Below, piece after piece: positions 5,342 to 64,000 of a stretch of DNA of 64,000 nucleotides. Origin of the DNA: Amphiura filiformis (lineage: Eukaryota; Echinodermata; Ophiuroidea; Amphilepidida; Amphiuridae). Each line of letters opens with the position of its first letter. Within the stretch, counting starts at the first letter, position 1. The notes beneath the pieces are model-generated. The model made no database searches. It had not been told where the DNA came from and saw only the letters and a program-made list of their open reading frames with translations. Location of the stretch: contig NC_092641.1 in assembly GCF_039555335.1 (NCBI RefSeq), positions 38,830,437 through 38,894,436 on the forward strand, written 5' to 3'. The position numbers and the translations under genes were made by a program.

Positions 5342-8300
5342 GTGATTATTGCACAATCTGTTGACCAAAGACCATGTGTATTATCTGCTAACCCTCCAAT
5401 TAAAACAAGAAAAAATCTTTGATAAATTCAATTTTTATTTTTCAAAATTTGACAACTTATAGGAACAATGCCAGATCCCCCACCCCCCATATTCACATAG
5501 CTTCCCTTACTCCCTTACTCCCTGTGCGGTTTATCATATCCATCTTAAACTAAGGTTGTTCATAAAAAGCAAATCTAGTAGTAATGCCACTCAATGCAAA
5601 TATGGCCCCTTCATTAAAATTTCAGTCCTTGATCAGATCCACGCAACTTGCATATTATAATAAGCTTCATAAATGTTAGACAGAGCAGTATGATATTCAT
5701 TTTGAAACTGAAACAATGAAAAGTTCACGGTGTCATATATGAACTTATGAAGAGAACAAGGCAAAAACAAATGTCTGATTAGCATGGTGAAAGTTTCAGT
5801 GGTATCTATGTCGAGATTGTGGATATATTTTGAAACTGAAAATGATGAAAAAGGTTCATAGTGGTGCACATGTAGCATCAAAACAAAATTGACTTGCATT
5901 TTGGGAATACAATGTTGAGTAAACATTCATTGTTGAACATTCATTTAATATTTATACTCCTTTGTTTTGACCCAAAGCTGTTAAGTTTTTAATTAGCAAA
6001 TAATCTACTTCCACTCCATAAAAATCTGTGCCTGGTAAATTTGTTATGACAAAAACATATAGATTAATGAAATTGTGATAAAGTAATAAAACACTAAGAG
6101 ACAATTAAAACCGATTTTATTTATAAATCGTGTGGGTTTAACTAAACGGGTTATTAAGGGTATTAACAAGCCTTGATGCTATTTTAACTTCATATGATAG
6201 GTTAACCCTATCCATGCCATTGCCAATATGGTTAAATAAGTTCAAAAGTTTGACAAAAACTTTCAAAAACTTTTTTTTTTATTACTAAAGTGGTTCGTAA
6301 TTTTAGGCGTTTTGAAATTTGATATTTTGATAACATCATAGATAGACTAATAGCTACCTTCACATGCTTAAAAAAACATGTAACCACATTCACAGGGTTT
6401 TGTGTGACCCATACATTGTAAAATGCTTCAGCATCAAGCCATGTAGTAGCAAGTAGCAAGACCCATAAGGAAGTGACGTCATGGCCACTTTCCGGGACCG
6501 AGTTTCCGTTTTGGCTCACTTTCTTTCCTGTGTATGTGTATTTGTGCACTAAGCGCTATCCTTCCCTTCACCGGCAGACCCTAGTATTTCATTCAGAAAA
6601 AAAACAAGCGCATAATTTATACAAGCGGTCTTTAGAGGTAGTTATGACTTAACTGTAAATTATTTCCTTCCAGAAGTTTTATGAATGACATCAATTTGTT
6701 GTTAGTTTTATTACTTGGGTGTTGTTGGTACATGCTCTTGAAACCGTCAAATGCAAAAATTGTGGGTTTTTCTGAAGTGGGAGATTTGTTATAGACTCAG
6801 TTTCTTAATAAATTGGGGGTTTTTTTGCGTTAATTTAGAAGGCTATTGTATGTGAAATGTTTGCTGCAGGCCCGTACGCAGGGGGGGTGCGGAGGGTGCG
6901 ACCGCACCTCCCCAAATCTGCAAAAGTATAACTAAAGTCCCCAAATTTAATAATTTATGAAAGCGTAGCGAGCAAAAAATCAGGTTTTTTACGTTTTTTT
7001 GGTCATAAAAGGTCCAAATTTGGGGGGAAAAGTCCACTTTTCACAAATTCACCCCCCCCCCCTTTGGAAAAAGTCCACTTTTTCAAAATCAGCACCCCCC
7101 AAAAAAAAATCCTGCGTACGGGCCTGGTTTGCTGCGATGTAAGTGGATGCTCATCATGGATTTTTGCTCTTGATTTTATATTAAATCTGGCACTATTACA
7201 TTTCTTACAGAGCTCCCGATTGGTTAATTACATATGATCCTCTTGAGTAACCAATCAAAATAGTTCATTGAAAATAGTTCTTAGATAATTGCCCCTGGGT
7301 TAAAATTATTGTGTGTGAATTGTTTGCAATGCTGTACAATAGCTGAGAGGTTATGAAATTTCAATGCATTATTCAATTGCAAACTTTATCAAAACAATTG
7401 GGGGGGGGGGGGTCTATATGCATTTTTAACTACCACTACATACTATGTTATGTGTTCTGTTGTCCATAGACATTGTTGTAATTATACATCTCGATTTTGT
7501 TAAATATTTATTTATTTGAACACTTTATTTTGCTAGCTATTGTTTTGCTAACCATTTGTTTGTTTCCACTTTGTTTTCTCCACTCAGGTCAGTATGGCTC
7601 TTTCGACAGCTTTGACAGCAACAACTCAGGCTATCAACAAGTCCCAATGTGCAAGTCTCTCTCGGACAGTTGCTCAAGCACAGATCTGGCTGGTCTGAGA
7701 CCCCCTTCATCAAGATCAACGTCCCCTCTTGACGTCCCAGAAGTTGTCTCAAACCCCGTCATCCCTGCTGCTGTCCTAGCTGGCTACTCAGGTAAATATA
7801 ACAACTGGTTGTAAATTTTGTAATGCAGAATGGTCTTTAAGCTTTATGAAAGCCAATCAGGAAAACAATAGCTGTTGAGTTTTAAACCACAAACCCACAG
7901 TGTATTGTGCTGAACTTGTTTCACCGTTGGGCGTGAATAAATCATGAATGCTCCTCAATCAAACGATATTCATGGGTGTATAGAAGTTATTGCATGGATT
8001 CCTATGGTCAATGATATTCCAGATTAAAAACAATTTGAAATGTTTTAGTTGGATGCACTCCAAACGTTTATAAGCTTACTAGCCGTTGGCCAAAATGCAC
8101 GGTTGAGTGGATGACCTGAAGGCTTGGCGTCAGGACAATGAGGAGAGGGTCACCATCGGTCAAATCACCTTGAACGCAGAATGAAAGAGGCAATAATGAA
8201 ACTGTACCAGTTTATATTATTTCTTGTAACTCCATGTCTGCAAAAACCCAAAATATTAACAGGCTGCTACAGTATAAATATATCTTCCATGTTTTGCATA

Positions 8301-8689
8301 AGTTTTCTAATGTGTATTTTTTTCGTCTATATTTATTTTCTCCTCATATAGGAAGTGGGCCCATTCAGTTGTGGCAATTCCTTCTTGAACTTCTCACAGA
8401 CAAAACCTGCCAACACATCATCAGCTGGACTGGCGATGGCTGGGAATTTAAACTATCAGATCCTGATGAGGTCGCACGTCGCTGGGGCAAGCGCAAGAAC
8501 AAGCCCAAGATGAACTACGAGAAACTTAGCCGCGGACTCAGGTACTACTACGACAAGAACATTATTCACAAAACAGCGGGTAAACGATATGTGTACCGCT
8601 TTGTGTGCGACCTCCAGAGTTTGTTAGGCTACTCGCCGGAAGAGTTACACGAAATGGTTGGAGTCAATCCCGCGCGGGATGACGACTGA
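5045..8689 (+). CDS. ETS1/2: ETS1/2-type transcription factor, C-terminal 3 exons (5' partial)
   Basis: Class I ETS factor that binds GGAA core DNA and regulates transcription in the nucleus. Visible exons are 5045-5341, 7588-7791 and 8352-8689; all junctions are AG/GT with matching phase (2 bases in, 1 base out). About 279 residues are encoded here. A serine-rich segment with a VKQE sumoylation-type site comes first. Then come FDSFDS, resembling the SFDS phosphorylated region of ETS1, and [11 protein letters not shown], matching the autoinhibitory helix HI-2 region. The complete winged-helix ETS domain follows (LWQFLLELL through the recognition helix GLRYYYDKN), with a short ETS1/2-style tail ending RDDD. 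The Pointed domain and start codon are not in the window. In echinoderms and other animals this family acts in mesoderm and vascular or skeletogenic programmes; that role is family knowledge, not visible here. Confidence 0.93.
6467..6481 (+). promoter_or_regulatory. Composite ETS-CRE motif in ETS intron
   Basis: AAGGAAGTGACGTCA joins an ETS core (GGAAGT) directly to a full CRE palindrome (TGACGTCA). This arrangement is a known high-affinity composite for ETS and CREB/ATF factors. No initiation site or conservation is visible, so function is only a possibility. Confidence 0.35.
6867..7126. mobile_element. hAT-like MITE, family H1 copy 1, perfect 8 bp TSD
   Basis: The ends CAGGCCCGTACGCAGG and CCTGCGTACGGGCCTG are perfect mirror images. 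The element is flanked by identical 8 bp GTTTGCTG (6859-6866 and 7127-7134). CAGG termini plus an 8 bp duplication indicate the hAT superfamily. No transposase is encoded. A second copy lies at 42065-42298. Confidence 0.9.
7588..7791 (+). CDS. ETS1/2: ETS1/2 exon B: SFDS motif and autoinhibitory helix region
   Basis: 204 bases after CACTCAG and before GTAAAT, phase-compatible with both neighbours. It encodes [14 protein letters not shown], comparable with the phosphorylated YDSFDSED of vertebrate ETS1. It then gives a serine/proline segment and [14 protein letters not shown], the conserved element just before the ETS domain. Confidence 0.93.
7792..8351 (+). other. ETS1/2 intron between exons B and C
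   Basis: 560-base intron with donor GTAAAT and acceptor CATATAG after a pyrimidine-rich tract. No repeat or RNA gene was recognised. Confidence 0.8.
8352..8689 (+). CDS. ETS1/2: ETS1/2 exon C: ETS DNA-binding domain and C-terminus
   Basis: The exon encodes [15 protein letters not shown], the helix-turn-helix with [10 protein letters not shown], the recognition helix containing the two DNA-contacting arginines in RGLRYYY, and the terminal helix [19 protein letters not shown]. Translation stops at TGA 8687-8689. The whole winged-helix domain sits in this last exon, as usual for ETS1/2. Confidence 0.96.
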
Positions 8690-10514: not shown

Positions 10515-10590
10515 GAAATTGATAGCTCAGTTGGTTAGAGCACTGGCTTGAAATCCAGTGGTCCCAGGTTCAAATCCTGGTCATGGTTGA
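10515..10590 (+). repeat. tRNA-like sequence, probably a SINE head or tRNA pseudogene
   Basis: Box A (TAGCTCAGTTGG), a D arm GCTC/GAGC, an anticodon-like hairpin CACTGG/CCAGTG, and a perfect T arm CCAGG/CCTGG with box B GGTTCAAATCC are present. The anticodon loop would have 8 rather than 7 bases, and only three of seven acceptor pairs form. A functional tRNA is therefore unlikely. Confidence 0.65.
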
Positions 10591-13886: not shown

Positions 13887-14396
13887 TATAGACGAATCTA
13901 AATTCACGCATTCCTACACCTGACTAGCAGCCTTTAGTTGGGTAGCCGTCGGCTACAATGCACTCAAAATGTGAAATGATTCAGCCTTGGCGGAAATTGT
14001 AAACTGCATTCCATCACCCGTTTTACACCTTCCGCGAAAACACAGGTAGACAAAAGAATAACACAATACAGTTCCCTTCGACAAAACACACAGCATGGTC
14101 TATTCGCTGTTGAAGTGACATAATAATCGGATTAACTATACGCGGTATCTATGCATTGATGTACTTGCGAACAAAAGGACTAAGTAGATGCGACGGGATT
14201 ACCTGCGGAATTATCTCCATTATATACATTATTAGCTATTATTCTATTAACCCTCCTCGTCCTTACATCTTCTCTAGGTGTTAGGCGGCTTTTATTTGCA
14301 CAATTGGACGCTCAAAACACCAGGTTGGTGCTAGCGGCTACCCAAAGATGTCCGACCAAATCCTGACCATGACTTGGCTACTTGGATTCGTCTATA
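13887..14396. mobile_element. MITE with GACGAATC ends, nested in family A, TATA target duplication
   Basis: TATA flanks both sides (13887-13890 and 14393-14396). The ends GACGAATCTA and GGATTCGTC are inverted, with subterminal GGGTAGCCG / CGGCTACCC. Family A copy 2 lacks it at the corresponding site, which confirms insertion. Confidence 0.8.
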
Positions 14397-14829
14397 TCCA
14401 CGAAAAAAGCTTACTCCCAAATTTTCAGTTGATTCCGATTTTGCGTTTGCGAGTTATGCATGAAATTATGTGTATTACACTGCTCCATAGGCTGTTGTAA
14501 TTTCGTTCTGGTATACCAGAACGAAATTCAAATATGACGATATTTTTGCTAAACGAAATAATCTGCAAGAAATATTGGGTACATAAATAGACTGGGAGCC
14601 CAGACAATTTATTCAGCTCAGAAGAGACAAAAGGTTTGATGGTCTGATTATGTTAGTATATGCCCAAGATTCAATATTCCATATTGCTGCCGGGTCACAG
14701 CCTGTACGTTCAGCCTGGGGTCACAAAGTAGGGGCCAAAAAATGCATTTATTCAGCTCAAGAGAGACATGGACAAAACTTGTTGGATATCACTCCCAGGA
14801 GGATACTTTTCATGCCTATAGCAATGACA

Positions 14830-16800
14830 GCAATTTTGGCCTGTACGGGGGGCCCAGACAGTAGCCCCAAAGGGGCCCGCCCATATGGTGTTATTCAGCT
14901 GAAGAGAGACAAGGATGAATCTTTTTGCATTGGAACTATTACACATTGGGGCGCACAAAAATACCAATGACAGCAACTTTTTCCTGTACGGGGGCCCAGA
15001 CAGTAGCCTCAAAGGGCCCAATGTCCCATAGCTGATTTATTCAGCTGAAGAGAGACATGGATGAATCTTTTTGCATTGGAACTATTACCCATTGGGGTTT
15101 ACAAAAATACCAATGACAGCAACTTTTTCCTGTAAGGGGGCCCAGACAGTAGCCTCAAAGGGCCCGATGCCCCATAACAGGTTATTCAGCTGAAGGAAGA
15201 CATGGATAAATCTTTTTGCATTGGAACTATTACACATTGGGGTGCACAAAAATACCAATGACAGCAACTTTTTTCCTGTACAGGGGGCCCAGACAGTAGC
15301 CTAAAAGGGCCCAATGCCCCATAACAGGTTATTCAGCTGAAGGAAGACATGGATAAATCTTTTTGCATTGGAACTATTACACATAGTGGTGCACAAAAAT
15401 ACCAATGACAGCAACTTTTTTCTGTTCGGGGGCCCAGACAGTAGCCTCAAAGGGCCCAATGTCCAATAACTGATTTATTCAGCTAAAGAGAGACATTGTT
15501 GAATCTTTTTCAATTGGAACTATTACACATTGGGGTGCACACAAATACAATGACAGCAACTTTTTCCTGTACGGGGGCCCAGACAGTAGCCTCAAAGGGC
15601 CCAATGTCCCATAGCTGATTTATTCAGCTGAAGAGAGACATGGATGAATCTTTTTGCATGGGAACTATTACCCATTGGGGCTTACAAAAATACCAATGAC
15701 AGCAACTTTTTCCTGTACGGGGCCCAGACAGTAGCCTCAAAGGGCCCGATGCCCCATAACAGGTTATTCAGCTGAAGGAAGACATGGATAAATCTTTTTG
15801 CATTGGAACTATTACACATTGGGGTACACAAAATACCAATGACAGCAACTTTTTCCTGTACGGGGGCCCAGACAGTAGCCTCAAAGGGCCGATGCCCCAT
15901 AACAGGTTATTCAGCTGAAGGAAGAAATGGGTGAATCTTTTTGCATTGCAACTATTACCCTTTGGGGTTTACAATAAAACTAATGACACTACATGACGGC
16001 AACCTTTTCCTGTACAGGGGCCCAGACAGTAGCTTCAGAGGAAAGGGCCCGATGCCCCATTACTGGTTATTCAGGTGAAGAGACACATGGGTGGATCTGT
16101 TTGAATTGGAACTTTTGCACATGGGGGTCAACAAAATACCAATGACAGCAACCTTTTCCTGTACATGGGCCCAGACAATAGCCTCAAAGGGCCCAATATC
16201 CCATAACTTTATATTCAACTGAAGAAACATAGACATGTGAGTGGATCTTTTTGAATTGGAATTATTGCACATTGAGGTCTAAAAATACCAATGACAGCAA
16301 CTTTTTCCTGTACGGGGGCCCAGACAGTTGCCTTAAAGGCCCGATGTCACATAAGTGATCGATTTATTCAGCTGAAGAGACACATGGATGAATCTTTTTG
16401 CATTAGAACTATTACCCATAATTAGCATGATCATGATGGCTAGGGTTTACACACTTTTCCTGTACATGGACCCAGACAGTAGCCTGAAAGGGCCCGATGT
16501 CCCATAACTGGTTATTCAGCTGAAGAAACACATGGATGAATCTTTTTGTAATGGAAGTATTACCCATTGGGGTTTGTAAAAATACCAATGCCAGCAACGT
16601 CTTCCTGTACGGGAGCTCAGACAGTAGCCTCAAAGGGCCCGATGTCCCATAACTGGTTTATTCAGCTGAAAGAAACACATGGATGAATCTTTTTGCAATG
16701 GAACTATTGCTCATTGGGGTTTGCAAAAATACCAATGCCAGCAACTAATTTCCTGCACGGGAGCCCAGACAGTAGCCTCAAAGGGCCCGATAGCCCATAA
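14830..16800. repeat. Left-arm tandem array, ~147 bp unit, about 13-14 copies
   Basis: The block CCCAGACAGTAGCC recurs at 14857, 14995, 15141, 15287, 15435, 15585, 15723, 15868, 16021, 16169, 16320, 16470, 16617 and 16764, spaced roughly 140-153 bases. Units share TTATTCAGCTGAAGAGAGAC and GCAACTTTTTCCTGTAC. The minus-strand open frames here are repeat read-throughs. Confidence 0.9.
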
Positions 16801-17818
16801 ATTCTAACACCCTGTCTGGTAAGTCCATCAGAGTTGATATACCAGTGTTGCAGAATGGGCGTCAAGTCTACACTACATCAAAAGTCAGAGCTGAAAAATT
16901 TTGCCAGACCTTTGCCGCTATAAAATGTTAGCTTCCCCGCACAGAAAAATCTGCTCCTGAAGTTCAGCTTCAGCAACATGCTCAAAGGTCCTGATGAAAT
17001 CATTGCAAGCCTCCTGAAGGAATACAGCACAGAACTGGCAAGACCACTCAGTCTGCTGTTTGAGCTTTGCTTCTCCAAGGGAGCTTTTCCAAGCCAATGG
17101 AATACTGCATTTTCATCCCTATTTATAAGAGATGCGAAGTCTAATTCATCTATGTACCTCTGCTCTGCATCACCAGCAAGAGCAAGGAGGCTGTTGTACA
17201 GAACAACTTCAGAATTACCTCCTTGAAAACCAACTGATATCAGATAGACAGTTTGGATTTAGGCCATACCAGAATATAACTAACCCAAGAGTGGTCCAAC
17301 TTCCTGGACAGAGGCAACGACCTGTGTCTGACTGCCCTGGATATCAAAGGAGCATTCAATAATGTCTGTCATAATGGAATATGATCATGGCAAAAGGAAT
17401 ATACGGCAAGCTGCTCATCTGGATTAGTAGCTACCTGACAGATCATTCCATCAAAGTTGTCTGTATCTGGCCATCCTCCATTACGGGACAATATTGAATC
17501 CACTTTTATTCTCTGTCTTCATTGATGACCTGGGTGATGAGTGTGAAACCCAATTCTACATCTACGCAGATGGTTTCACCTTGTTTTGTGAGGTTACATC
17601 TAGAGACAGCCCGGCTAGCCTAAACAGAGACCTGGAGAAAATGAGGATCTGGGCAGATGACAGACGGATGGTGACCTTCGAGACATCGAAACGTAAGGCA
17701 ATGGCAATACGGTATCAAGAAAGAGGAATCCAACCAATATAAATATTCTGTTTGGTACCACCACACTGGGTGAGAAGGAGGAGCTGGAGATCCGGGGAGT
17801 CACAGTCGACAGAAAACC
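16800..17818 (+). pseudogene. Decayed CR1/L2/Jockey-like non-LTR retrotransposon reverse transcriptase fragment
   Basis: Three frames carry RT blocks in the right order. KGPDEI..SLLKEY and PLSLLFELCFSKGAFPSQWN form the conserved N-terminal RT block. NQLISDRQFGFRP follows, then ALDIKGAF in another frame, NPLLFSVFIDDL with YADG where the catalytic YADD would be, and EIRGVTVD near 17790. Frameshifts and stops separate the blocks and the catalytic aspartate pair is broken. No ORF1 or endonuclease was seen. It sits exactly in the loop of the foldback element. Confidence 0.85.
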
Positions 17819-17829
17819 CCAATGTACAA

Positions 17830-18960
17830 TAGTTCCAATTCAACAAGATCCATCCAAGTGTCTCTTCAGCTGAATAACCAGTTATGGGATATCGGGCCCA
17901 TTGAGGCTACCGTCTGGGCCCCATAACAGAAAAAGTTGCTGTCATTGGTATTTTTGTGCACCCCAATGTGTAATAGTTCCAATGCAAAAAGATTTTTCCA
18001 TGTCTTCCTTCAGCTGAATAACCTGTTATGGGGCATCGGGCCCTTTGAGGCTACTGTCTGGGCCCCGTACATTAAAATATGCTGTCATTGGTATTTTGTG
18101 CACCCCAATGTGTAACAGTTCCAATGCAAAAGATTTATGCATGTCTTCGTTCAGCTGAATAACCTGTTATGAGACATCAGGGTCTTTGAGGCTACTGTCT
18201 GGGCCCCTGTACAGGAACAAAATGTTGTCATTGTATTTGTGTGCACCCCAATGTGTAATAGTTCCAATTGAAAAAGATTCAACCATGTCTCTCTTTAGCT
18301 GAATAAATCAGTTATTGGACATTGGGCCCTTTGAGGCTACTGTCTGGGCCCCCGAACAGAAAAAAGTTGCTGTCATTGGTATTTTTGTGCACCACAATGT
18401 GTAATAGTTCCAATGCAAAAAGATTTATCCATGTCTTCCTTCAGCTGAATAACCTGTTATGGGGCATTGGGCCCTTTTAGGCTACTGTCTGGGCCCCCGT
18501 ACAGGACAAAGTTGCTGTCATTGGTATTTTTGTGCACCCCAATGTGTAATAGTTCCAATGCAAAAAGATTTATCCATGTCTTCCTTCAGCTGAATAACCT
18601 GTTATGGGGCATCGGGCCCTTTGAGGCTACTGTCTGGGCCCCTGTACAGGAAAAAGTTGCTGTCATTGATATTTTTGTAAACCCCAATGGGTAATAGTTC
18701 CAATGCAAAACGATTCATCCATGTCTCTCTTCAGCTGAAAAATCAGCTATGGGACATTGGGCCCTTTGAGGCTACTGTTTGGGCCCCCGTACAGGAAAAA
18801 GTTGCTGTCATTGGTATTTTTGTGCGCCCCAATGTGTAATAGTTCCAATGCAAAAAGATTCATCCTTGTCTCTCTTCAGCTGAATAACACCATATGGGCG
18901 GGCCCCTTTAGGGCTACTGTCTGGGCCCCGGTACAGGCCAAAATTGCTGTCATTGCTATA
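17830..18960. repeat. Right-arm tandem array, same ~147 bp unit inverted, about 8 copies
   Basis: GGCTACTGTCTGGGCCC or close variants recur at 17905, 18050, 18190, 18343, 18479, 18625, 18770 and 18908. This is the left-arm unit in reverse complement. The + strand open frames at 18467-19020 are repeat read-throughs. Confidence 0.9.
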
Positions 18961-19639
18961 GGCATGAAAAGTGTCCTCCTGGGAGTGATATCCAACAAGT
19001 TTTGTCCATGTCTCTCTTGAGCTGAATAAATGCATTTTTTGGCCCCCTACTTTGTGACCCCCAGGCTGAACGTACAGGCTGTGACCCGGCAGCAATATGG
19101 AATATTGAATCTTGGGCCTATACTAACATAATCAGACCATCAAACCTTTTGTCTCTTCTGAGCTGAATAAATTGTCTGGGCTCCCAGTCTAAAACAGTAT
19201 ATAGCCAGAGGTTTCCAGTGGTATAAAAATCTCAACTTTATTTGAGAAAAGTGGGAGATGATGCTGTGGATCAGGAAATGCCCTTTTAAATAGTAAAAGG
19301 GTTTTTGTTGAAAGAACACCAAAAACAAAATCTGGCCTTTCAAGAACTTTTTAAAAAGGTCTATTAAATGGTTCTTTCTAGCCTTTTCAGAACCTTTTGT
19401 GTTCTTCGTAGAACTATTTAAAGTTCTACTTCCAAGACAGCTAAAAACAAACAAACAAAAACTTTTAGGTTATTCTTTGAACCTAAGATCAGAGCGTGTA
19501 GCCATAATCGCGCCGAAATTAATTTCCGAATTTCAATCAAAACAGTGCTCATAACTTGGTCTTATATTAAAATATTTTGTGGGTCCGTATTTAAAAAAAA
19601 AAACACGTCTCCAAGTTGCCGCGCGCGTTGGTTTAGCGT

Positions 19640-21610
19640 ACCGCGTAAAGCCAAGAATTTTCGCGTTGCGGAAATTCCGCGAAATAGACCATGGGACAAG
19701 GCTTGCTAAGTGCTTCAGAAAGTAGTTTTCGTTCTCCCTTTCTGGGTAGAGGATGGTTTATACATGAAAATATAGCTATTATATCACTGATCAATAATAT
19801 AACATTTCCCACTTTCAAAAGTTGCACGTTACTGTGTAATTTAGGAGTTATTTGGGGTTAAAAATGTGTTTTTCGTGATTTTTTCCATTTTGCCCAAAAA
19901 TGTCAAATATTAAAATAGCTGTAACTTTCAAAATAAATTGAGTAGAAATTTCATTTCTATTGTAGATGTTACATATTACATGGATGTCTAACACTGGTGA
20001 ATAAAAATGTCACAGCACAACTCTAAAATATAAAAAAAATGGCAAAAACCATATTTTTGTGCTATTTCGGCCATTTTTGAGCTAAAAATGTAATTTTTGC
20101 ATGGGGAAAAAATAAATATAAAATTCTATTGATTTAAAAAATATGTCATTATGTCAACCTAGTTATTCTGAACAAAAAAGTTAATGATGGTGAATGTCTG
20201 TGACCTATAGTTTTTTGATCTATGGCCCTTTCAAATTCATATATGGACTAAAATAGCATGTTTTTGTTCAATATTTCCAATATTAAAAAAAATGGTCCTT
20301 TATGGCCATTTTAACCAACTTGTTAGTTTTTGGAAAGTGGGAACTTCACTTAATAATATGAACATGTAATTGTACTTTAATGTTAAGCTATTTCAAGATC
20401 CACTAGTATGCCCACTACCGTGGTAGCAGCAATTTTATCTACTTTCAATGCAGTAAAATGATGACTAAAATGATTTTGCTGCATTGAAAGTAGTAAAATT
20501 GACGATATAATTGCTTCTGCCATGGAAACCGAGCTACCAGTGGATCTACAACTAGCTTAAAATGAAAGTACTATAATATATCCATAATATATGTGAAGTT
20601 CCCACTTTCCAAACACTGAAAATTTTGTTAAAATTACAAAAAGTACCATTTTCAGCCTAATATTGGAAAAATTGACAAAAACATGCTATTTTAGTCCATA
20701 TGTGAATTTGAAAGGGCCATAGATCAAAAACTATAGGTCACAGACATTCACCATCATTAACTTTTTTGTTCAGAATAACTAGGTTGATATAATGACATAT
20801 TTTTTAAATCAAGAAAATATATATTTTTTTTTTTCCCATGCAAAAAATACATTTTTAGGTCAAAAATGGCCAAAATAGCACAAAAATATGGTTTTTGCCA
20901 TTTTTTCATATTTTAGAGTTGTGCTGTGACATTTTTATTCACCAGTGTTGGAAATCCATGTGACATGTAACATCTACAATAGAAATGAAATGTCTACGCA
21001 ATTTATTTTGAAAGTTACAGCTATTTTAATATTTGACATTTTTGGGCAAAATGGAAAAAAATCACGAAAACACATTTTAACCCCAAATAACTCCTAAATG
21101 AGTAAAGTAAAACTTGGGAACTTTTTGGAAATTAATTCAGACATATATTTACTCTTGATTTGTTATGTTTTTATGTTCTGCCCAAGAGTGGACTACGGAA
21201 GTGAAAGATAAATGCCCATGTCCCATAGTCTAAAAATCGCGGAATTCGGCGGTAAAGCGGAAAACACATTTTTGAGAAAAAAATTAAAAAATAAGCAAAA
21301 ATGACCTAGAAAAAGGAAAACAATACAATTGAAAAGAAATAAATAAAATACTAAATGAAATGGGTCTTCAAAATTCATCAAAATAAAGTAAAATCCGTCA
21401 TAGATTTACCATACAACGCCTGTCCTACCTCCCATTGCAGCCACGATACCCAATCACCCATCCCAACTTTGCAAATCGCAATGATCGTCACAAGATTCTT
21501 GTAAAATTTTATTATGTCAGAAATGTGCTAAAATTACAAAGCGGAGAAAAGCGGAATTTAGCATTTGTAAAGCAGAAAATTCTTGGCTTTAGTTTAGCGA
21601 TGCGAATTAG
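19640..21610. mobile_element. Large imperfect foldback element
   Basis: The core arms 19841-20460 and 20480-21097 are nearly perfect mirrors; TAGGAGTTATTTGGGG pairs with CCCCAAATAACTCCTA, and the centre lies near 20470. Looser outer arms also pair: AAAGCCAAGAATTTTC near 19650 with GAAAATTCTTGGCTTT near 21575, and ACCATGGGACA with TGTCCCATAGT. No coding content was recognised. It is probably a non-autonomous foldback transposon. Confidence 0.75.
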
Positions 21611-21866: not shown

Positions 21867-22235
21867 TTAAGGGGGCACTACACCCCTGGCCAATTTTGTG
21901 CCTATTTTTGCATTTTTCTCAAAAATTAAAGTGCATTGGTGACAATTAAGATATGCATGTTGTAGGGGCAAGGACTACAACTATTGCTCTGAAAATTCTG
22001 CAACTCATGCAAGGCAAGTAGTTATTGATTTATTGATCAAATACTGGTTTTCCCTCATTTTTGACTGCAACTCCAGAACTGCTGTCTGTGCCGAAATAAA
22101 ATTTCCAGTGCAGTAGTTGCAGTCCTTTCCCCTATAAAGTATAATATACATATCTTACTTGTCACAATGCGCTATAGTTTTTGGCAAAAATAAAAAATAA
22201 GCGCAAAATTGGACAGGGGTGTAGTACCCCCTTAA
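21867..22235. mobile_element. TTAA-flanked MITE family P1, copy 1
   Basis: TTAA bounds both ends. TIRs are AAGGGGGCACTACACCCC and GGGGTGTAGTACCCCCTT. The copy at 42951-43291 shares both ends and much of the interior. TTAA target sites are typical of piggyBac-type MITEs. Confidence 0.85.
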
Positions 22236-30360: not shown

Positions 30361-31341
30361 CACTGTAAAAAATTGTGGACGCCTGATGTTGAAAGAATAA
30401 ACACCATTAACACACATTTAAAAACACCTCTTTTGTAATATATCCCACTATTGAACACCGGTGTTCCAATAATATGAACAGCAGTGTTCAAGGTGGTGTT
30501 CCAAATATGAACGGCAGTGTTCAAGGTGGTGTTTTAGGTCTGTTCCACTATTGAACACTGGATGTTCAAACCTAGAATACCACCTTGAACACTGCCGTTC
30601 ATATCTGAAACACCACCTTGAACACTGCCGTTCATATATTTGGACACCACCTTGAACACTGCCGTTCAGTTGGAACACCACCTTGAACATTGCCGTTCAT
30701 ATTTGGACACCACCTTGAACACTGCCGTTCGGTTGGAACACCAGTGTTCAATAATGAGTGGAACATATTATGGTGTTATACACTGTATAACACATGAAAC
30801 GCGTTCATTAATATAACGGGTTTTTTAACACATGACATGCATGTCACGTGTTCAACTTATTTAGAGAACACTAGTGTGAACACCTGAGACGTGTTTATAA
30901 GATACAGTTGAACACATGACACATGTGTAAAAAGTGTTCTAAAATATTTCAGAACATAGTGTTCAAACTACAAGAACACCAGTGTTCAAATGAAACAAAG
31001 AAAGACATAAGGACATTTTGTGTCAAGTGTTCAAAAGGTGTTAATACATAATGTATTGAAAATGTTGTCTTATTTTTCAAAATCAAATATTAATGTAACA
31101 ATTATGTTTCCTTTTAGTGATAGTGCTAGGTAAGGAGACACTATTTAAGGCAAATTTTAGTATGGATATGCAGACATCTTTTCATAACTAATCTTGGAAA
31201 CAGAGACAGAACACTAGTGTCAAGTGTTCTATGAATTTTACAGTGTACTGTTGAAGGTGTTTAATTAAATGTGTGTAGGCCTAAATGCCGGGCCTAAAAT
31301 GGTGTTCATTCATTCAACATCAGGCGTCCAATTTTATAATG
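30361..31341. mobile_element. CACTGTAAAA-ended element with ~35 bp tandem repeats
   Basis: The left end carries GGACGCCTGATGTTGAA, mirrored by TTCAACATCAGGCGTCC at 31313-31330. Between 30430 and 30740 the motif CACCTTGAACACTGCCGTTC recurs in both orientations. GTGTTCAA/TTGAACAC words continue to about 31030. The architecture resembles the 24675-25283 element (CACTG ends, short hairpin repeats inside). Confidence 0.75.
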
Positions 31342-35823: not shown

Positions 35824-35895
35824 TATTATAAAACTGATGCAACACTTTGAAATCCTCACTCAAAATACAATATGTAGAAAATTAGCATCGCCATA

Positions 35896-35962
35896 AACTG
35901 TCAAACCAGGGACCTTGTAAGCTGTAGACTAAACGGCAATCCGCTCGGCCAGTAAGTCTACC
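35896..35962 (-). repeat. tRNA-related SINE head (minus strand)
   Basis: On the minus strand, ACTGGCCGAGCGG gives a box A like Ser/Leu tRNAs. A box B-like GGTCCCTGGTTTGA follows after about 45 bases. The duplicated copy lies at 37692-37758. Confidence 0.5.
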
Positions 35963-36019
35963 AAAATAATATTTTAAGATGAATATCTAACGATGTTTTG
36001 AAAAATTATCGTTATTAAA

Positions 36020-36584
36020 ATGACTCGATTAGTACGATCCCCACCACGGATGATCTCCACTCAAACCAGAGTTACGCCACAAACCACAAGACTCTCAAAT
36101 GGGACGCCCAAATCGAATACAATAACACAAGAAAATCTTCAGAATCCTAGCATGAGCATAAGAAGACAGAAAAGAGAAATACACGGAGTAATTTTATCGG
36201 GCACCACCCCAGCGACCACCAGACCATGAGAGTTCCTCAAGAACATCTCCAAACCTACGAAGGCAGCAGGTTCTTTGCTCCTGGCAGCACCAACGGGAAA
36301 GTTGCACGGAAGGCCAACAGAAACCGAAGAAAAAACGCAAGGACTCGGCAAAATGTTAAAATTCGCAAGAGAACTGTGTTATATTTAGGTGAAAACTTTG
36401 CTGTGAAGCTTTTCAGTGATTTCAAATTTCAGCGATTTGTTGAAAATTTCAATGAGAGAGGACTTATCTATTGTCAGTTTGAAACCTTCCGTCATTTCAA
36501 CGATATGAATTTGTCGCTGTTGGGGCAGAAGTTGCTTGATTCGCCAAATGCTGGTGGCAACTCAGTAGAATCTGAAGTATTGAG
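36020..36584 (+). pseudogene. Upstream duplicate of unknown-gene exon 1, frameshifted
   Basis: It matches exon 1 at 37816-38381 but differs by A4 versus A5, C4 versus C5 and A6 versus A5 in three homopolymers. As written, the frame from the ATG ends near 36229 and the conserved C-terminal part is open in another frame (36226-36584). The donor TTGAG|GTAATT is intact, so it could serve as an alternative first exon if the indels are sequencing errors. Otherwise it is a decayed duplicate. Confidence 0.7.
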
Positions 36585-36773
36585 GTAATTGAACTTTTCT
36601 TTTCATTGAACATTTTTATAATTATCGAAAAAGTGTCTTTTTAACATATTTTGACCATAATTAACTTTCCTGTACCAGGATTTACTTTTATTACAATTTT
36701 CCCGGCAATTTTCACAATCACATGTCTTGTTTTATTTTCTTTGACACGTTTAAACATACACCTCTTTGATTAC

Positions 36774-37173
36774 TTCAATACACTACTCTAAACACTGGTC
36801 AGTAACCAAACAGTTGTCCAACTGACACAATAGCAAAATGCACTGACATGGAACAGCTTCCTGGACCACATTCACAGCCCAATAATTGGCACCCAACACA
36901 AGAAATCTGCGAGTAAATGGAATAGTGTGGAACAAGACCTGTTTCTTAAAGAAAGTGTGTGAATAGCAGAAGCAGCACCATTCCACACTAGTCCACTTAC
37001 TCTTTTGAAATAATCACCTGTGTAAGGAACTTGTACGCATTCTCACAGATTTCTTTTGCTGGGTTCAATTATTCGCTTGTGAATGTGGTCGGGTTCCGTG
37101 TCAGTGCATTTTACTATTGTGTCAATTGACAACTGATTGGTTACTGAAATTTGTTTAGAGTAGGATATTGAAG
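36774..37173. mobile_element. Foldback in intron 1, duplicate copy 1
   Basis: The left arm, from TTCAATACACTACTCTAAAC, pairs with the right arm ending GTTTAGAGTAGGATATTGAA. CACAATAGCAAAATGCACTG pairs with CAGTGCATTTTACTATTGTG. Arms are about 150 bases each. The minus-strand open frame at 36783-36986 lies on an arm and is not a gene. Confidence 0.8.
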
Positions 37174-37460
37174 TATAAATCCTGTGTGTAATTTTTTTTT
37201 TTTTTTATGGACATGATTTTAAGATATGACTTTGTGAAAATTTATAAGTTTCTTTTTGAGGCCAGTTTATAATAGTTACATTTATGGATGGATATTCTCT
37301 CCCAACCATATAGAGCACATGCAGTAACAGCTAGTAACAGCAATCTTGACATCAATGTTGATTTTCCTGTACCAGGATTACAGAGCTGTATTTGTGACAC
37401 TGAAACAAATACACATATACGGTACTATTGACTGCTCGATCGATTGTTTGATTTGTTTAT

Positions 37461-37619
37461 ATGTGACGTGTCATGTCAAAAGGAGACACTTTTGGGCAGG
37501 TTATGAATTTTGAGTTTTTTACATATATCTTAAATAAAGAGATATTTTGCTTCACAACGCCATTTCCCCCAATGAAATCGGACATTCCTAAGCGAAGATA
37601 TTGAGTTCGAAAGTTATGA
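37461..37619. mobile_element. Truncated copy of the ATGTGACGTGTCATG MITE at the duplication junction
   Basis: It has the left end of the element at 39258-39684 but stops at the duplication breakpoint (ATGATATTATAAAA), where copy 2 begins. Confidence 0.8.
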
Positions 37620-37691
37620 TATTATAAAACTGATGCAACACTTTGAAATCCTCACTCAAAATACAATATGTAGAAAATTAGCATCGCCATA

Positions 37692-37758
37692 AACTGTCAA
37701 ACCAGGGACCTTGTAAGCTGTAGACTAAACGGCAATCCGCTCGGCCAGTAAGTCTACC
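37692..37758 (-). repeat. tRNA-related SINE head (minus strand), duplicate copy
   Basis: Same sequence as 35896-35962. It lies about 60 bases before the ATG of the unknown gene, so the promoter must be farther upstream or SINE-derived. Confidence 0.5.
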
Positions 37759-37815
37759 AAAATAATATTTTAAGATGAATATCTAACGATGTTTTGAAAA
37801 ATTATCGTTATTAAA

Positions 37816-38381
37816 ATGACTCGATTAGTACGATCCCCACCACGGATGATCTCCACTCAAACCAGAGTTACGCCACAAACCACAAGACTCTCAAATGGGA
37901 CGCCCAAATCGAATACAATAACACAAGAAAATCTTCAGAATCCTAGCATGAGCATAAGAAGACAGAAAAAGAGAAATACACGGAGTAATTTTATCGGGCA
38001 CCACCCCCAGCGACCACCAGACCATGAGAGTTCCTCAAGAACATCTCCAAACCTACGAAGGCAGCAGGTTCTTTGCTCCTGGCAGCACCAACAGGAAAGT
38101 TGCACGGAAGGCCAACAGAAACCGAAGAAAAACGCAAGGACTCGGCAAAATGTTAAAATTCGCAAGAGAACTGTGTTATATTTAGGTGAAAACTTTGCTG
38201 TGAAGCTTTTCAGTGATTTCAAATTTCAGCGATTTGTTGAAAATTTCAATGAGAGAGGACTTATCTATTGTCAGTTTGAAACCTTCCGTCATTTCAACGA
38301 TATGAATTTGTCGCTGTTGGGGCAGAAGTTGCTTGATTCGCCAAATGCTGGTGGCAACTCAGTAGAATCTGAAGTATTGAG
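37816..38381 (+). CDS. Unknown gene exon 1 (intact copy)
   Basis: 188 codons plus two bases, open throughout, with donor TTGAG|GTAATT. The N-terminus (MTRLVRSPPR) is basic and Thr/Ser-rich, and the last 70 codons look conserved-type (FAVKLFSDFKFQRFVENFNE). The reading frame in the middle differs from the upstream duplicate because of three homopolymer indels. Confidence 0.7.
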
Positions 38382-41300
38382 GTAATTGAACTTTTCTTTT
38401 CATTGAACATTTTATAATTATCGAAAAGTGTCTTTTTAACATATTTTGACCATAATTAACTTTCCTGTACCAGGATTTACTTTTATTACAATTTTCCCGG
38501 CAATTTTCACAATCACATGTCTTGTTTTATTTTCTTTGACACGTTTAAACATACACCTCTTTGATTACTTCAATACACTACTCTAAACACTGGTCAGTAA
38601 CCAAACAGTTGTCCAACTGACACAATAGCAAAATGCACTGACATGGAACAGCTTCCTGGACCACATTCACAGCCCAATAATTGGCACCCAACACAAGAAA
38701 TCTGCGAGTAAATGGAATAGTGTGGAACAAGACCTGTTTCTTAAAGAAAGTGTGTGAATAGCAGAAGCAGCACCATTCCACACTAGTCCACTTACTCTTT
38801 TGAAATAATCACCTGTGTAAGGAACTTGTACGCATTCTCACAGATTTCTTTTGCTGGGTTCCAATTATTCGCTTGTGAATGTGGTCGGGTTCCGTGTCAG
38901 TGCATTTTACTATTGTGTCAATTGGACAACTGATTGGTTACTGAAATTTGTTTAGAGTAGGATATTGAAGTATAAATCCTGTGTGTAATTTTTGTTCATT
39001 TTTATGGACATGATTTTAAGATATGACTTTGTGAAAATTTATAAGTTTCTTTTTGAGGCCAGTTTATAATAGTTACATTTATGGATGGATATTCTCTCCC
39101 AACCATATAGAGCACATGCAGTAACAGCTAGTAACAGCAATCTTGACATCAATGTTGATTTTCCTGTACCAGGATTACAGAGCTGTATTTGTGACACTGA
39201 AACAAATACACATATACGGTACTATTGACTGCTCGATCGATTGTTTGATTTGTTTATATGTGACGTGTCATGTCAAAAGGAGACACTTTTGGGCAGGTTA
39301 TGAATTTTGAGTTTTTTACATATATCTTAAATAAAGAGATATTTTGCTTCACAACGCCATTTCCCCAATGAAATCGGACATTCCTAAGCGAAGATATTGA
39401 GTTCGAAAGTTATGATATTATAAAATTGTAAATTGAGATATCAGCCTTTAAAAATATTATTGACTATGTTGAGAGTAGGAATTAACTTGAAAAATGTCTC
39501 AAAAAATACAAGATGCCAGTTAAATTACGGTCTGAAACTATCAGACAATATTTTTAGCATTTATAACATCACAAATTCGCAACAAACCCAAATTGTGAAA
39601 AAATCACCCACCGGCAGATTTTTGGCTATTTCTCCATTTATGATCCTGCCCAAAAGTGTCTCTTTTTGACATGACACGTCACATATGTCTCTTTATGTAA
39701 TATATATATATTTGCACCACATAAATGGAGCTCTGAACACACATGGAATCTACCCGGACATGCATCACTCCAGACAATCCCGCAGACGGAAATTTGTTCC
39801 ATAAACATGCTAAGGCAAATCTTCTTGCCAAATTAGTGTACCTTTATATAGTTGATATTATTATGTCAATATTTATGCATTTACCTTTTGACTTTGAATT
39901 GGGTTCATGTGATTTAGTAACTTTATGGAAACCTCCCCCCACTCAAACACATTTGATTAGATTTTGTATCTTCCCCTCTTGCCTAGGAAAAAATCATTCT
40001 AACTGTCCTAAAAATTCAATATCATCAAATGCTTTTTACATATCTACAGTTATGAACTTCTCCACCGTTGCTATGGTGCTCGACTGGCGAAGACCGAGAT
40101 GGAAGTCGTGTATTTTCCGGAGGGCGGGTCGATTACCGATTACACGTGTGAGATGTTCGGTACGTTACTCGGTGTATCGGTAACCCGAGCTATGAAATAC
40201 AAAGGAGATTTCACACTTGAAGATGCCGACAAGTTACTCAATAAGAAGCTAAATGGTAAGTGTAGTGAATGCATCATTTTCTGATCAATTTTCTAAACAA
40301 CTTTTATGTTAAAAAACAATACTTAGCTTTATTAAATCCCCTCTTATCCTCTCTGTGAGCTACTGTGTATGAACATCATTTTTAACTTAAACTATTTGGT
40401 CAAAATCCACAAGCATGTACTCTATCATGTCTATAGTCCTTTCCTAAAATGATATGATAGTTGTTAAACCTGTGAGTACTGAGTTTGTGTGAGGAACTTT
40501 ATTTTCCTGCTCTCAGACCATCATCAAAGGCTGCACAAATTAATTTGGCAACGTTTTCCCACTGCTAAAAAAAGTTACCAATATAGTAACCAAAACCGAG
40601 ACATACTTTCTTAGATATGCTCAGAACCAAAGTTGTGCTCTAAGAAGGGGAACAAAAAACAAGCAAATAAAAAACCCATAAAATAAAAACGCTCAAACCA
40701 TGACCCTTTGAAATTAATGTAAAATCAAATTTTGTGACAAGGGCTATATTAAGGGATCTAAAATGAGCGTTTATTGCGTTTCGACAGTATTGTTTGTGGG
40801 ACATGAGAGCACCTCAGACCTATCGAATTGCATTCTGAATACGAAGCATGTCTTTCTGATATCAAATAATTTTCATTTTTGAAAATCACAATATAATACA
40901 AATTTTATGACAAATTATAAAAATTTGATATTTTTCAAATTTTGATATATAACAGTCCTCGAAGTAAATTATATAAATCTAATGATATATTCTTAAAGTG
41001 TATGTAGCAGGGAGGAAAAGCCGACGGTCAATTGAAAATTTTGACCTTTCATGTTGAAGATATAGATTTTTTTCCCAAAAAGACCTAATTTTTTTTGGTG
41101 TTTTGGGAAAAAAGATCCATATCTTCAATACGAAAGGTCAAAATTTTCAATTGATCGTCGGCATTTCATCCCACCTACATACACGTTAAGTATAAATCAT
41201 CAGATTTATAAAGTTTACTTCGAGTACTGTTAAATATCAAAAATATAATTTTTAATGATTTGCCATAAAATGTGTATTAAATTGCGAATTTCAAAAACCA

Positions 41301-41748
41301 AAATTATTTGATATCAGAATGACATTCTTCGTATTCAGAATGCAATTCGATATGTCTGATGCTCTAATGTCCCACAATAAATACTGTCCAAACGTTCATA
41401 CCCCAGCCCTTAATTGATATAAATACATTAATATTTAAACTGCAATGAAATTTGAATCACATAGCTTAAATGAATTCACTGAAAGTCCTTGAATGAAATG
41501 AAATTCCGTGAACAAAAATATTTATTTCTCTCCTCTTCTTTTTCCTCCGAACAGGCATTGTCAACTCTACCCAGAACACATTAGAGAAATGGTCTAAACA
41601 AATTCTGCACGTTTGGGCTACGTCACATCACGTAGCAAACATGGTAACACAAGCCTACAGACACCTCCCTACAGACATCCAGTCTAACACAGTAGTCTTC
41701 ATTACAGTCGTTGTGACTTCCAATACCACCATTTTCTGTAATTCATGA
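37816..41748 (+). CDS. Unknown three-exon gene, possible restriction-endonuclease-like fold
   Basis: Exons 37816-38381, 40050-40255 and 41555-41748 join in phase through GT-AG junctions (AG+T, then G+GC) into 321 codons ending at TGA. No family was recognised. Residues 1-120 are Arg/Lys/Thr-rich and look disordered. From about residue 115 the pattern is ordered: a strand/helix segment (TVLYLGENFAVKLF), helix SYELLHRCYGARLA (189-202), strand EVVYF, ITDYTCEMFG with Asp219, and LGVSVTRA (Ser232, Thr234, Arg235). A helix, ILHVWAT, a second helix and VVFITVVV follow. That order resembles a PD-(D/E)XK core with an altered catalytic triad; this is inference only. The start is the first ATG of the exon; residues about 52-100 depend on homopolymers that differ between duplicate copies. 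Confidence 0.7.
38569..38970. mobile_element. Foldback in intron 1, duplicate copy 2
   Basis: Same inverted arms as 36774-37173, carried along by the tandem duplication. It lies within intron 1 (38382-40049). Confidence 0.8.
39258..39684. mobile_element. MITE with ATGTGACGTGTCATG ends, in intron 1
   Basis: GTGACGTGTCATGTCAAAAG is mirrored by CTTTTTGACATGACACGTCAC, with CACTTTTGGGCAGG / CCTGCCCAAAAGTG next to it. The right breakpoint of the 1.8 kb duplication lies inside this element. A diverged inverted relative is at 43685-43905. Confidence 0.8.
40050..40255 (+). CDS. Unknown gene exon 2
   Basis: 206 bases between ATCTACAG and GTAAGT. It is clearly GC-richer than the flanks and encodes YELLHRCYGARLAKTEMEVV and TDYTCEMFGTLLGVSVTRAM, then LEDADKLLNKKLN. 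The acceptor phase matches exon 1 only through the AG|T serine codon. Confidence 0.82.
40749..41413. mobile_element. TTAA-flanked palindromic MITE family P2, copy 1, in intron 2
   Basis: TTAAGGGATCTAAAATG at the left pairs loosely with CAGCCCTTAA at the right. Arms pair over most of the length (GAATTGCATTCTGAAT with ATTCAGAATGCAATTC). Copy 2 at 62659-63324 is highly similar. Confidence 0.9.
41555..41748 (+). CDS. Unknown gene exon 3 and stop
   Basis: The acceptor CCGAACAG follows a strong pyrimidine tract. The exon gives GIVNSTQNTLEKWSKQ, ILHVWATSHHVANMV and a final hydrophobic strand (TVVFITVVV), then TGA at 41746-41748. Confidence 0.8.
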
Positions 41749-42950: not shown

Positions 42951-43291
42951 TTAAGGGTACTACACCCTGGCCAATTTGTGCCTATTTTTGCATTTTCTCA
43001 AAAATTATAGCATAATGGTGACAATTAAGATATGCATGTTGTAGGGGCAATGACTACAACTATAGCAACTCAAGGCAAGTAGTTATTGATTTATTGATCA
43101 AATACTGGTTTTCCCTCATTTTTGACTGCAACTCCACAGCTGCTGTCTGTGCCGAAATAAAATTTCCAGTGCAGTAGTTGTAGTCCTTGCCACTATAATA
43201 TACATATCTTACTTGTCACCAATGCGCTATAATTTTTGAGAAAAATGCAAAAATAGGCACAAAATTGGACAGGGGTGTAGTACCCCCTTAA
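42951..43291. mobile_element. TTAA-flanked MITE family P1, copy 2
   Basis: TTAAGGGTACTACACCC at the left and GGGGTGTAGTACCCCCTTAA at the right match copy 1 at 21867-22235, as does the interior (GATTTATTGATCAAATACTG). Confidence 0.85.
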
Positions 43292-44019: not shown

Positions 44020-44800
44020 TGAGAGAAGATGAACCAATAAGTTCCTTGGCACCCCCTGGATTCGAACCTTAGACCCTCGGTTGCTCTGCACAAGATCACT
44101 GACTTGTAGCCACGGGGTTTTGCAGCCCGGCCAGCGATTCCATGGGTATATATGACTTGGACTGATTACGTCATGCTATCACGTGCAATGCATGCATGCA
44201 CATTGGTTTTCTTTGTAAGATTTTATAGAGTTAGGGTTAACCCCACAGAATTAAAACCAGAGAACCAGGACTCGACCCCCATCTTGATACAGACATGGAG
44301 CAAAAATTGGGGGTATTCGGTTTCCCTCGGAATGCGCTCGAGGCATTCGTTGTCATGCAAGCGCGACATAGATGATGGGCGCATTTGAGAGACGCACTTG
44401 ATGCGACCTGCCAAAATGCTGCAGATGAGACACTGAATTGTTTTCGTTCGTCTCCGCGCACCGTTGGCAAGGACCCGAATACCCCCAATTTTCTCCCCAT
44501 AGCTGACGGCGCGATAGTACGTGGCGGTATAGGGAGTCCCGGTTCTCCTTCTCTAATTCTGTGGTTAACCCTAATACGCCCACGTACTACAAAATTCTAC
44601 CAGGTTGTGTGTGCATGCATCCTATGTGATGTGATGATGCAATCACCCTTAGTTAAATATACACATACTTTCATTGGCCAGGCCAGCGAAAGCCCTTTGA
44701 CTACCGGTCACCAATCTGGTGGTTAGTACGGCGAGGGGTCTCGGGTCCGAACCCTGATCCGAACAAACAACCTCTATGTTTGTTTTCTCTCTTCATTCAT
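44020..44800. repeat. SINE-like pieces flanking a foldback
   Basis: GGATTCGAACC near 44058 (minus-strand box B) and GGTCCGAACCCTGATCC near 44740 are tRNA-like heads in opposite orientation. Between them, 44230-44575 is a foldback: TTAGGGTTAACCCCACAGAA pairs with TTCTGTGGTTAACCCTAA. The several overlapping open frames here are artefacts of the palindrome. Confidence 0.55.

Positions 44801-51847: not shown

Positions 51848-64000
<12,153 letters not shown>

Follow-up and report, generated by a model that had tools for sequence, protein, structure and literature searches.

Organisation of the element

The window analysed here is a stretch of 64,000 nucleotides from the ophiuroid Amphiura filiformis (NCBI RefSeq assembly GCF_039555335.1, contig NC_092641.1, positions 38,830,437 to 38,894,436 of the forward strand), and all coordinates below are positions within it. 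At 14588-19191 lies an element of 4604 bp in which two arrays of the same 145-bp unit face each other across an unrelated spacer and end in near-identical inverted terminal domains. The whole interrupts a repeat, here called repeat X, and is very probably a non-autonomous foldback-type DNA transposon. The features that carry this interpretation are as follows.

14394-14584, + strand: left half of repeat X, the insertion target (14394-14561 is 87% identical to 62496-62662; joined alignment)
14585-14587, + strand: left copy of a putative 3-bp target duplication, AAA (best empty-site score among configurations with symmetric tips)
14588-19191, no strand assigned: the whole element, 4604 bp, very probably a non-autonomous foldback-type transposon (symmetric ends and paralogous empty site)
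14588-14743, + strand: left terminal domain, whose first 43 nt have two blocks in common with the 145-bp unit (shuffle test)
14744-16802, + strand: left array of 13 full and 2 partial 145-bp units (profile matches and Tandem Repeats Finder, TRF)
16803-17812, + strand: spacer, apparently a decayed reverse-transcriptase fragment, with frame breaks (translation and Pfam RVT_1)
17813-19032, - strand: right array, mirrored, of 7 full and 2 partial units (profile matches)
19033-19191, - strand: right terminal domain, near-identical to the left terminal domain (arm alignment)
19192-19194, + strand: right copy of the putative 3-bp target duplication, AAA (empty-site scoring)
19195-19291, + strand: right half of repeat X (19192-19291 is 89% identical to 63348-63447; joined alignment)
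62496-63447, + strand: second copy of repeat X with the empty site, lacking the element but holding a different, nested palindromic element at 62659-63324

The outermost 73 nt of both arms are identical in inverted orientation, with the tip TAGACTGGGAGCCCAG. Of the 89 inverted pairs in 14000-20000, the 25 longest include five that follow one another in mirror order from the ends inward, with lengths of 133, 124, 190, 235 and 338 nt and identities of 99%, 98%, 99%, 98% and 96%, respectively. The element has the long inverted ends built of tandem repeats by which foldback-type elements are recognised structurally. An earlier reading of the same DNA from its letters alone (the sequence-only reading) had placed the boundaries at 14589 and 19190, one base short on each side of the symmetry, which runs from 14588 to 19191; its description of a 4.6 kb near-palindrome holds for the outline, but one array is longer than the other and the spacer at 16803-17812 is not palindromic. 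By eye, each tip also contains a small hairpin-like sequence, CTGGG-AG-CCCAG (14588-14603 and 19176-19191).

TRF gave a period of 145 for both arrays (14818-16800, 13.5 copies; 17816-18959, 7.9 copies), in agreement with the 13-14 and 8 units counted earlier; the arrays are opposed as had been described, but the unit has a consensus of 145 bp instead of ~147 bp. A profile search of the element returned 24 unit matches, of which 15 (13 full and 2 partial) belong to the left array and 9 (7 full and 2 partial), in mirrored orientation, to the right one; unit length ranges from 141 to 154 bp among the 20 full copies. The stretch 14744-14851 is clearly a diverged unit, scoring 90.5 against 45.5 for the highest shuffle. 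Within the left arm, unit L6 is 97% identical to L2 and L7 98% identical to L3, pointing to blocks of units having been duplicated or copied inside one arm; units L8-L13, found on the left only, are more diverged. A DNA hairpin formed by a single unit was considered as a functional feature and rejected: unit 15141-15286 folds no better than its shuffles (z 0.74), 152 of 200 of which did at least as well.

The spacer translates, in broken frames, into reverse-transcriptase-like sequence, which from our own recognition of motifs we take to be a probable fragment of a non-long-terminal-repeat retrotransposon. Pfam RVT_1 matched one of three spacer pieces (E 6e-5; 23.3 bits against a curated cut-off of 29.6), as did the open frame 17431-17739 with the same sub-threshold match, while the other two pieces had no reverse-transcriptase match in Pfam. 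Both spacer ends seem to fall inside coding-like sequence, and because neither resembles a natural retrotransposon end, this suggests that the spacer was captured rather than freshly retrotransposed. Other Pfam matches in open frames of the element were weak and below cut-off (LARA_dom, E 0.07; Rad26-like_N, E 0.044). A candidate transposase outside the element, a DDE_Tnp_4 match at 44226-44552 (E 0.039, below cut-off), was rejected, as six neighbouring open frames added no strength to it; the ten open frames scanned there, these six included, gave weak zinc-finger matches only.

Insertion into repeat X

The flanks of the element are the two halves of repeat X and joining them restores the repeat, so the element is an insertion into repeat X. 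Once the nested palindromic element of the second repeat X copy, which sits some 25 bp from the insertion point, is cut out and its flanks are joined, that copy aligns straight over the joined flanks of the element. The possibility raised in the sequence-only reading, that the palindrome might be an assembly join of two unrelated arrays, is spoken against by flanks that are two halves of one repeat.

Empty-site scoring covered 8 start and 8 end positions with duplications of 0-10 bp, and those with 15-nt symmetric tips were ranked. The top configuration places the element at 14588-19191 with a perfect AAA duplication (score 418); a TA target was rejected on its lower score of 409. A 3-bp target duplication is likely but not proven, given the small score margin and the A-rich flanks. 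By eye, the empty site in the second repeat X copy (63343-63359) is a palindrome, TACATAAACATTATGTA, with a 3-nt centre, and the one insertion seen lies just off that centre.

Symmetry between the arms

The two arms align with 1316 of 1370 ungapped positions identical (96.1%), and this identity is unevenly distributed. Over the outer 900 alignment columns (14588-15485), identity is about 98%, with 11 substitutions and 6 gap columns; the next four 100-column blocks hold 6 and 0, 14 and 6, 2 and 4, and 6 and 2, respectively, and the last 93 columns hold 13 and 16. Unit by unit, the seven full right units average 96.4% identity to the left units of the same rank, against 86.5-90.9% in six shifted registers, and 11 of 20000 permutations of left units 1-7 equalled the same-rank mean. 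R1, R2, R4 and R5 each match the same-rank left unit best. The mirror is not a simple one: R2 is nearly as similar to L6 (96.5%) as to L2 (96.6%), and R3 is equally similar to L3 and L7. For R6 the closest left unit is L3 (92.2%), and for R7, too, L3 comes out marginally ahead of L7 (97.2% against 96.5%). The block-wise counts of substitutions and gap columns are as conversion tracts would give.

Similarity between tip and unit

When the element's first 43 nt are aligned to the unit, they match in two blocks, GGG.GCCCAGACA and TTATTCAGCT, with a score of 32.0 that none of 1000 dinucleotide shuffles reached (highest shuffle 29.5). As a control, the outer flanks score 27.0 and 25.5 against the unit, compared with 41.5 for 14588-14735. 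The 34 tip-aligned columns agree at 0.941 across the 20 full units, compared with 0.895 elsewhere, and none of 144 circular shifts reaches the higher figure; the two longest stretches in which every column shows at least 95% agreement, CCCAGACAGTAGCC and TTCAGCT, both overlap the tip blocks. Exact matches were counted in the arms and in the window outside the element: pointing inward, CCCAGACA has 14 copies in the left arm and 7 in the right, and TTATTCAGCT 13 and 9, with no outward copy of either and none in the window outside the element. This pattern is compatible with both blocks being putative transposase-binding sites, repeated along the arms in the orientation of the tip.

Comparison with known families

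FB of D. melanogaster and TU of sea urchin share the foldback outline, with inverted ends that are long and internally repetitive, but differ from the element in their much shorter internal units and in their duplication lengths. The sequence-only reading set the element apart from FB and TU by such short units, a contrast that does not hold for foldback elements in general, as Tetris has units of ~220 bp and Galileo units of ~140 bp or ~210 bp.

Tetris, in D. virilis, has AT-rich units of ~220 bp, 3 and 4 of them in the left end of two compared alleles, and its outer flanking domain and unit have 37 bp in common at ~80% identity; its transposase is reported as not found (PMC4079207). It resembles the element in its long inverted ends, where an outer domain is followed by long tandem units that vary in number, in its variable non-coding middle, in the short stretch common to unit and outer domain, and in that no transposase has been found. 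It differs, in a comparison made by description, in its fly host, in its ~220-bp units against 145 bp with 7-13 full units here, and in its target duplications of 8-9 bp (9-10 bp in rearranged copies; PMC4079207) against a putative 3 bp; readings of the present site with 8- or 9-bp duplications carry at least 3 mismatches among the configurations listed.

Galileo, a Drosophila element of the P superfamily, is similar in that its inverted ends are lengthened by direct tandem units whose number may differ between ends. In the longest D. willistoni copy, the inverted ends measure 4246 and 4680 bp and contain direct repeats of ~140 bp, including regions of 6.8 and 9 repeats, and no other copy there has such repeats (PMC4168063). 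Galileo F of D. mojavensis carries up to three copies of a ~210-bp repeat (PMC3573991). Secondary transposase binding sites have been placed in the tandem repeats (PMC4168063, PMC3573991, PMC3688188). Galileo differs from the element in its 7-8 bp duplications and P-type transposase: here, 7- and 8-bp duplications with symmetric tips show at least 3 mismatches among the configurations listed, and no P-type (THAP) or other transposase match was seen in the 11 of 19 open frames of the element that were scanned, although a non-autonomous copy may lack the gene. On duplication length, the element would belong to neither the Galileo nor the Tetris family.

Among other DNA transposons, CACTA/EnSpm has CACTA/G tips, which the TAGACTGGG tips of the element do not match. 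The target and tip sequences usual for PIF/Harbinger show no obvious match, and no transposase was seen in the scanned frames, although the putative 3 bp would fit the target duplication of that superfamily (PMC2213677). Tm1 of root-knot nematodes, which is Mutator-like and has groups with and without transposase, is like the element in its composite inverted ends with internal repeats, but has a ~14-bp internal motif and 9-bp target duplications (PMC3169594).

Alternative explanations

Foldback-type transposition is the best reading of the element, and here the sequence-only reading holds up: the ends are symmetric, the long arms are mirrored and made of tandem units, the empty site is preserved in a paralogous repeat, and a short target duplication is probable. 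That the same element acquired its mirrored arms from a single inverted duplication of one arm, with no later conversion, is an alternative to one step only and is possible if somewhat doubtful. It would account for the high mirror-rank identity along most of the shorter arm, and the patchiness could also be obtained by local replacement of units within one arm, as the likeness of L6 to L2 and of L7 to L3 allows. A single event, however, leaves the patchiness itself to be explained by extra events: none of the first nine 100-column blocks has more than 4 differences, the tenth has 6, and the eleventh (15586-15684) has 20, made up of 14 substitutions and 6 gap columns, before the count falls back to 6 at 15685-15782.

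Three other explanations dispense with foldback transposition altogether. A dispersed satellite array, partly inverted by ordinary rearrangement, would leave two opposed tandem arrays with a foreign spacer, as observed, but is very unlikely: the same tip lies at both boundaries, repeat X is joined exactly there, and the mirroring extends to the terminal domains outside the arrays. Helitrons and Helentrons have asymmetric rolling-circle ends and are not known to make a target duplication, whereas the ends here are long, fully symmetric and inverted, and a 3-bp target duplication is apparent. The Cg_HINE Helentrons of the Pacific oyster are mobile elements that carry short satellite-like arrays, with monomers mostly of 140-180 bp, between two end modules, and suggest that the element could be a non-autonomous Helentron (HINE) with such an array at its centre. 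As described, however, these Helentrons have subterminal inverted repeats and a 3' palindrome and no long symmetric inverted ends (PMC7492417), and the two arrays here are opposed instead of running in one direction, leaving this explanation with an even slighter probability. Just as improbable is an assembly artefact in which a read or haplotype was folded back on itself. Near-identical inverted arms are a common form of such artefacts, but these arms differ in scattered substitutions, in indels and in six full units, the spacer is unmirrored, and the flanks on either side make up a single repeat when joined.

Several observations weigh against the foldback reading or against parts of it. No second copy of the element was found at E 0.01 in the 64-kb window outside 14500-19250, and the element patterns had 0 exact matches in five scans of viral and prokaryotic sequence collections, where none were expected, so that one copy has been seen. 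No transposase was found at limits of E 0.1 or E 0.01 in the 11 Pfam-scanned of 19 open frames of at least 60 aa in the element. Duplications of 5, 7 and 9 bp with 2-3 mismatches score 414 against 418, and an AAA duplication in A-rich flanks, from one copy, is weak taken alone. The similarity between tip and unit becomes marginal in longer terminal pieces, where 3 of 1000 shuffles reach the score of 14588-14735 and 1 of 1000 that of 14588-14743. The shared blocks are also not unique in their conservation, single windows as conserved as CCCAGACAGT, TTATTCAGCT and TTATTCAGCTGAAGA numbering 6, 17 and 38 of 145, respectively. Shared descent of tip and unit, without protein binding, could give the same conservation pattern, and for this reason transposase binding to the blocks is something that we infer only.

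Other features of the window

Several further repeats lie in the window. The palindromic element nested in repeat X (62658-63325) has a second copy at 40748-41414 (94% identity), with TTAAGGG tips and a probable TTAA target. About 650 bp to the right of the foldback-type element, 19839-21099 is an imperfect palindrome of 1.26 kb (87.7% self-complementary) with no clear target duplication by eye. The stretches 21867-22235 and 42955-43291 are related (87% over 21873-22235), the first being palindromic with TTAAGGGGG tips. A 33-bp tandem repeat with inverted copies occupies 30460-30743, and 35824-37629 and 37620-39425 form a 1.8 kb tandem duplication at 99.3% identity, either a recent duplication or an unmerged haplotype. 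At 10520-10583, an Rfam tRNA match of 46.8 bits without an ARAGORN call is possibly a tRNA-derived short interspersed element.

Coding sequence in the window includes an ETS1/2-like exon at 8174-8686 (+ strand; ETS domain, Pfam PF00178, E 1.6e-36), whose best matches among solved structures are c-ETS-1 chains. ETS factors being animal proteins, this exon is a sign of animal DNA. On the - strand, there is an exon like that of V-ATPase catalytic subunit A at 63863-63997 (E 3.8e-12), and further subunit A-like exons at 60539-60829 and 62188-62526 have matches below the Pfam cut-off.

Proposed mechanism and significance

Under the foldback-type reading, a transposase supplied in trans by a partner element would have cut the element at its tips and placed it in repeat X, with a probable 3-bp duplication of the target. 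The units may derive from tandem amplification of subterminal sequence with the end-like block pair CCCAGACA...TTATTCAGCT, putatively bound by the transposase, so that each arm would bear many candidate binding sites, all facing inward like the tip. Unequal exchange could alter the number of units per arm, and copying from arm to arm, by gene conversion or hairpin-templated repair, could hold the outer parts alike. The central reverse-transcriptase fragment may have been taken up in gap repair.

The architecture is already known from fruit flies; the sequence and the apparent 3-bp duplication seem to differ, in a comparison of descriptions and not of the sequence with those of known elements. 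Neither a published description of the element (whose sequence is itself not searchable by text) nor a foldback element with a 3-bp duplication was found among the titles and abstract openings listed by our literature search. More tentatively still than the single-event origin of the arms considered above, the element may represent a foldback family of a DNA-transposon superfamily not yet tied to this architecture (3-bp duplication, TAGACTGGG tips), with arms that are an amplified transposase-binding end module. If this is true, such an element would recruit transposase in multiples and seed a 145-bp satellite in the host genome. Among transposons with satellite-built arms, Tetris has been put forward as an origin of new satellite DNA and Galileo has been implicated in chromosome inversions. 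Arms mirrored unit for unit, together with a tip motif that recurs in the units, offer a direct handle on how such arms grow and keep their symmetry, and the element would gain in importance if the family is abundant in its host and the 3-bp duplication holds.

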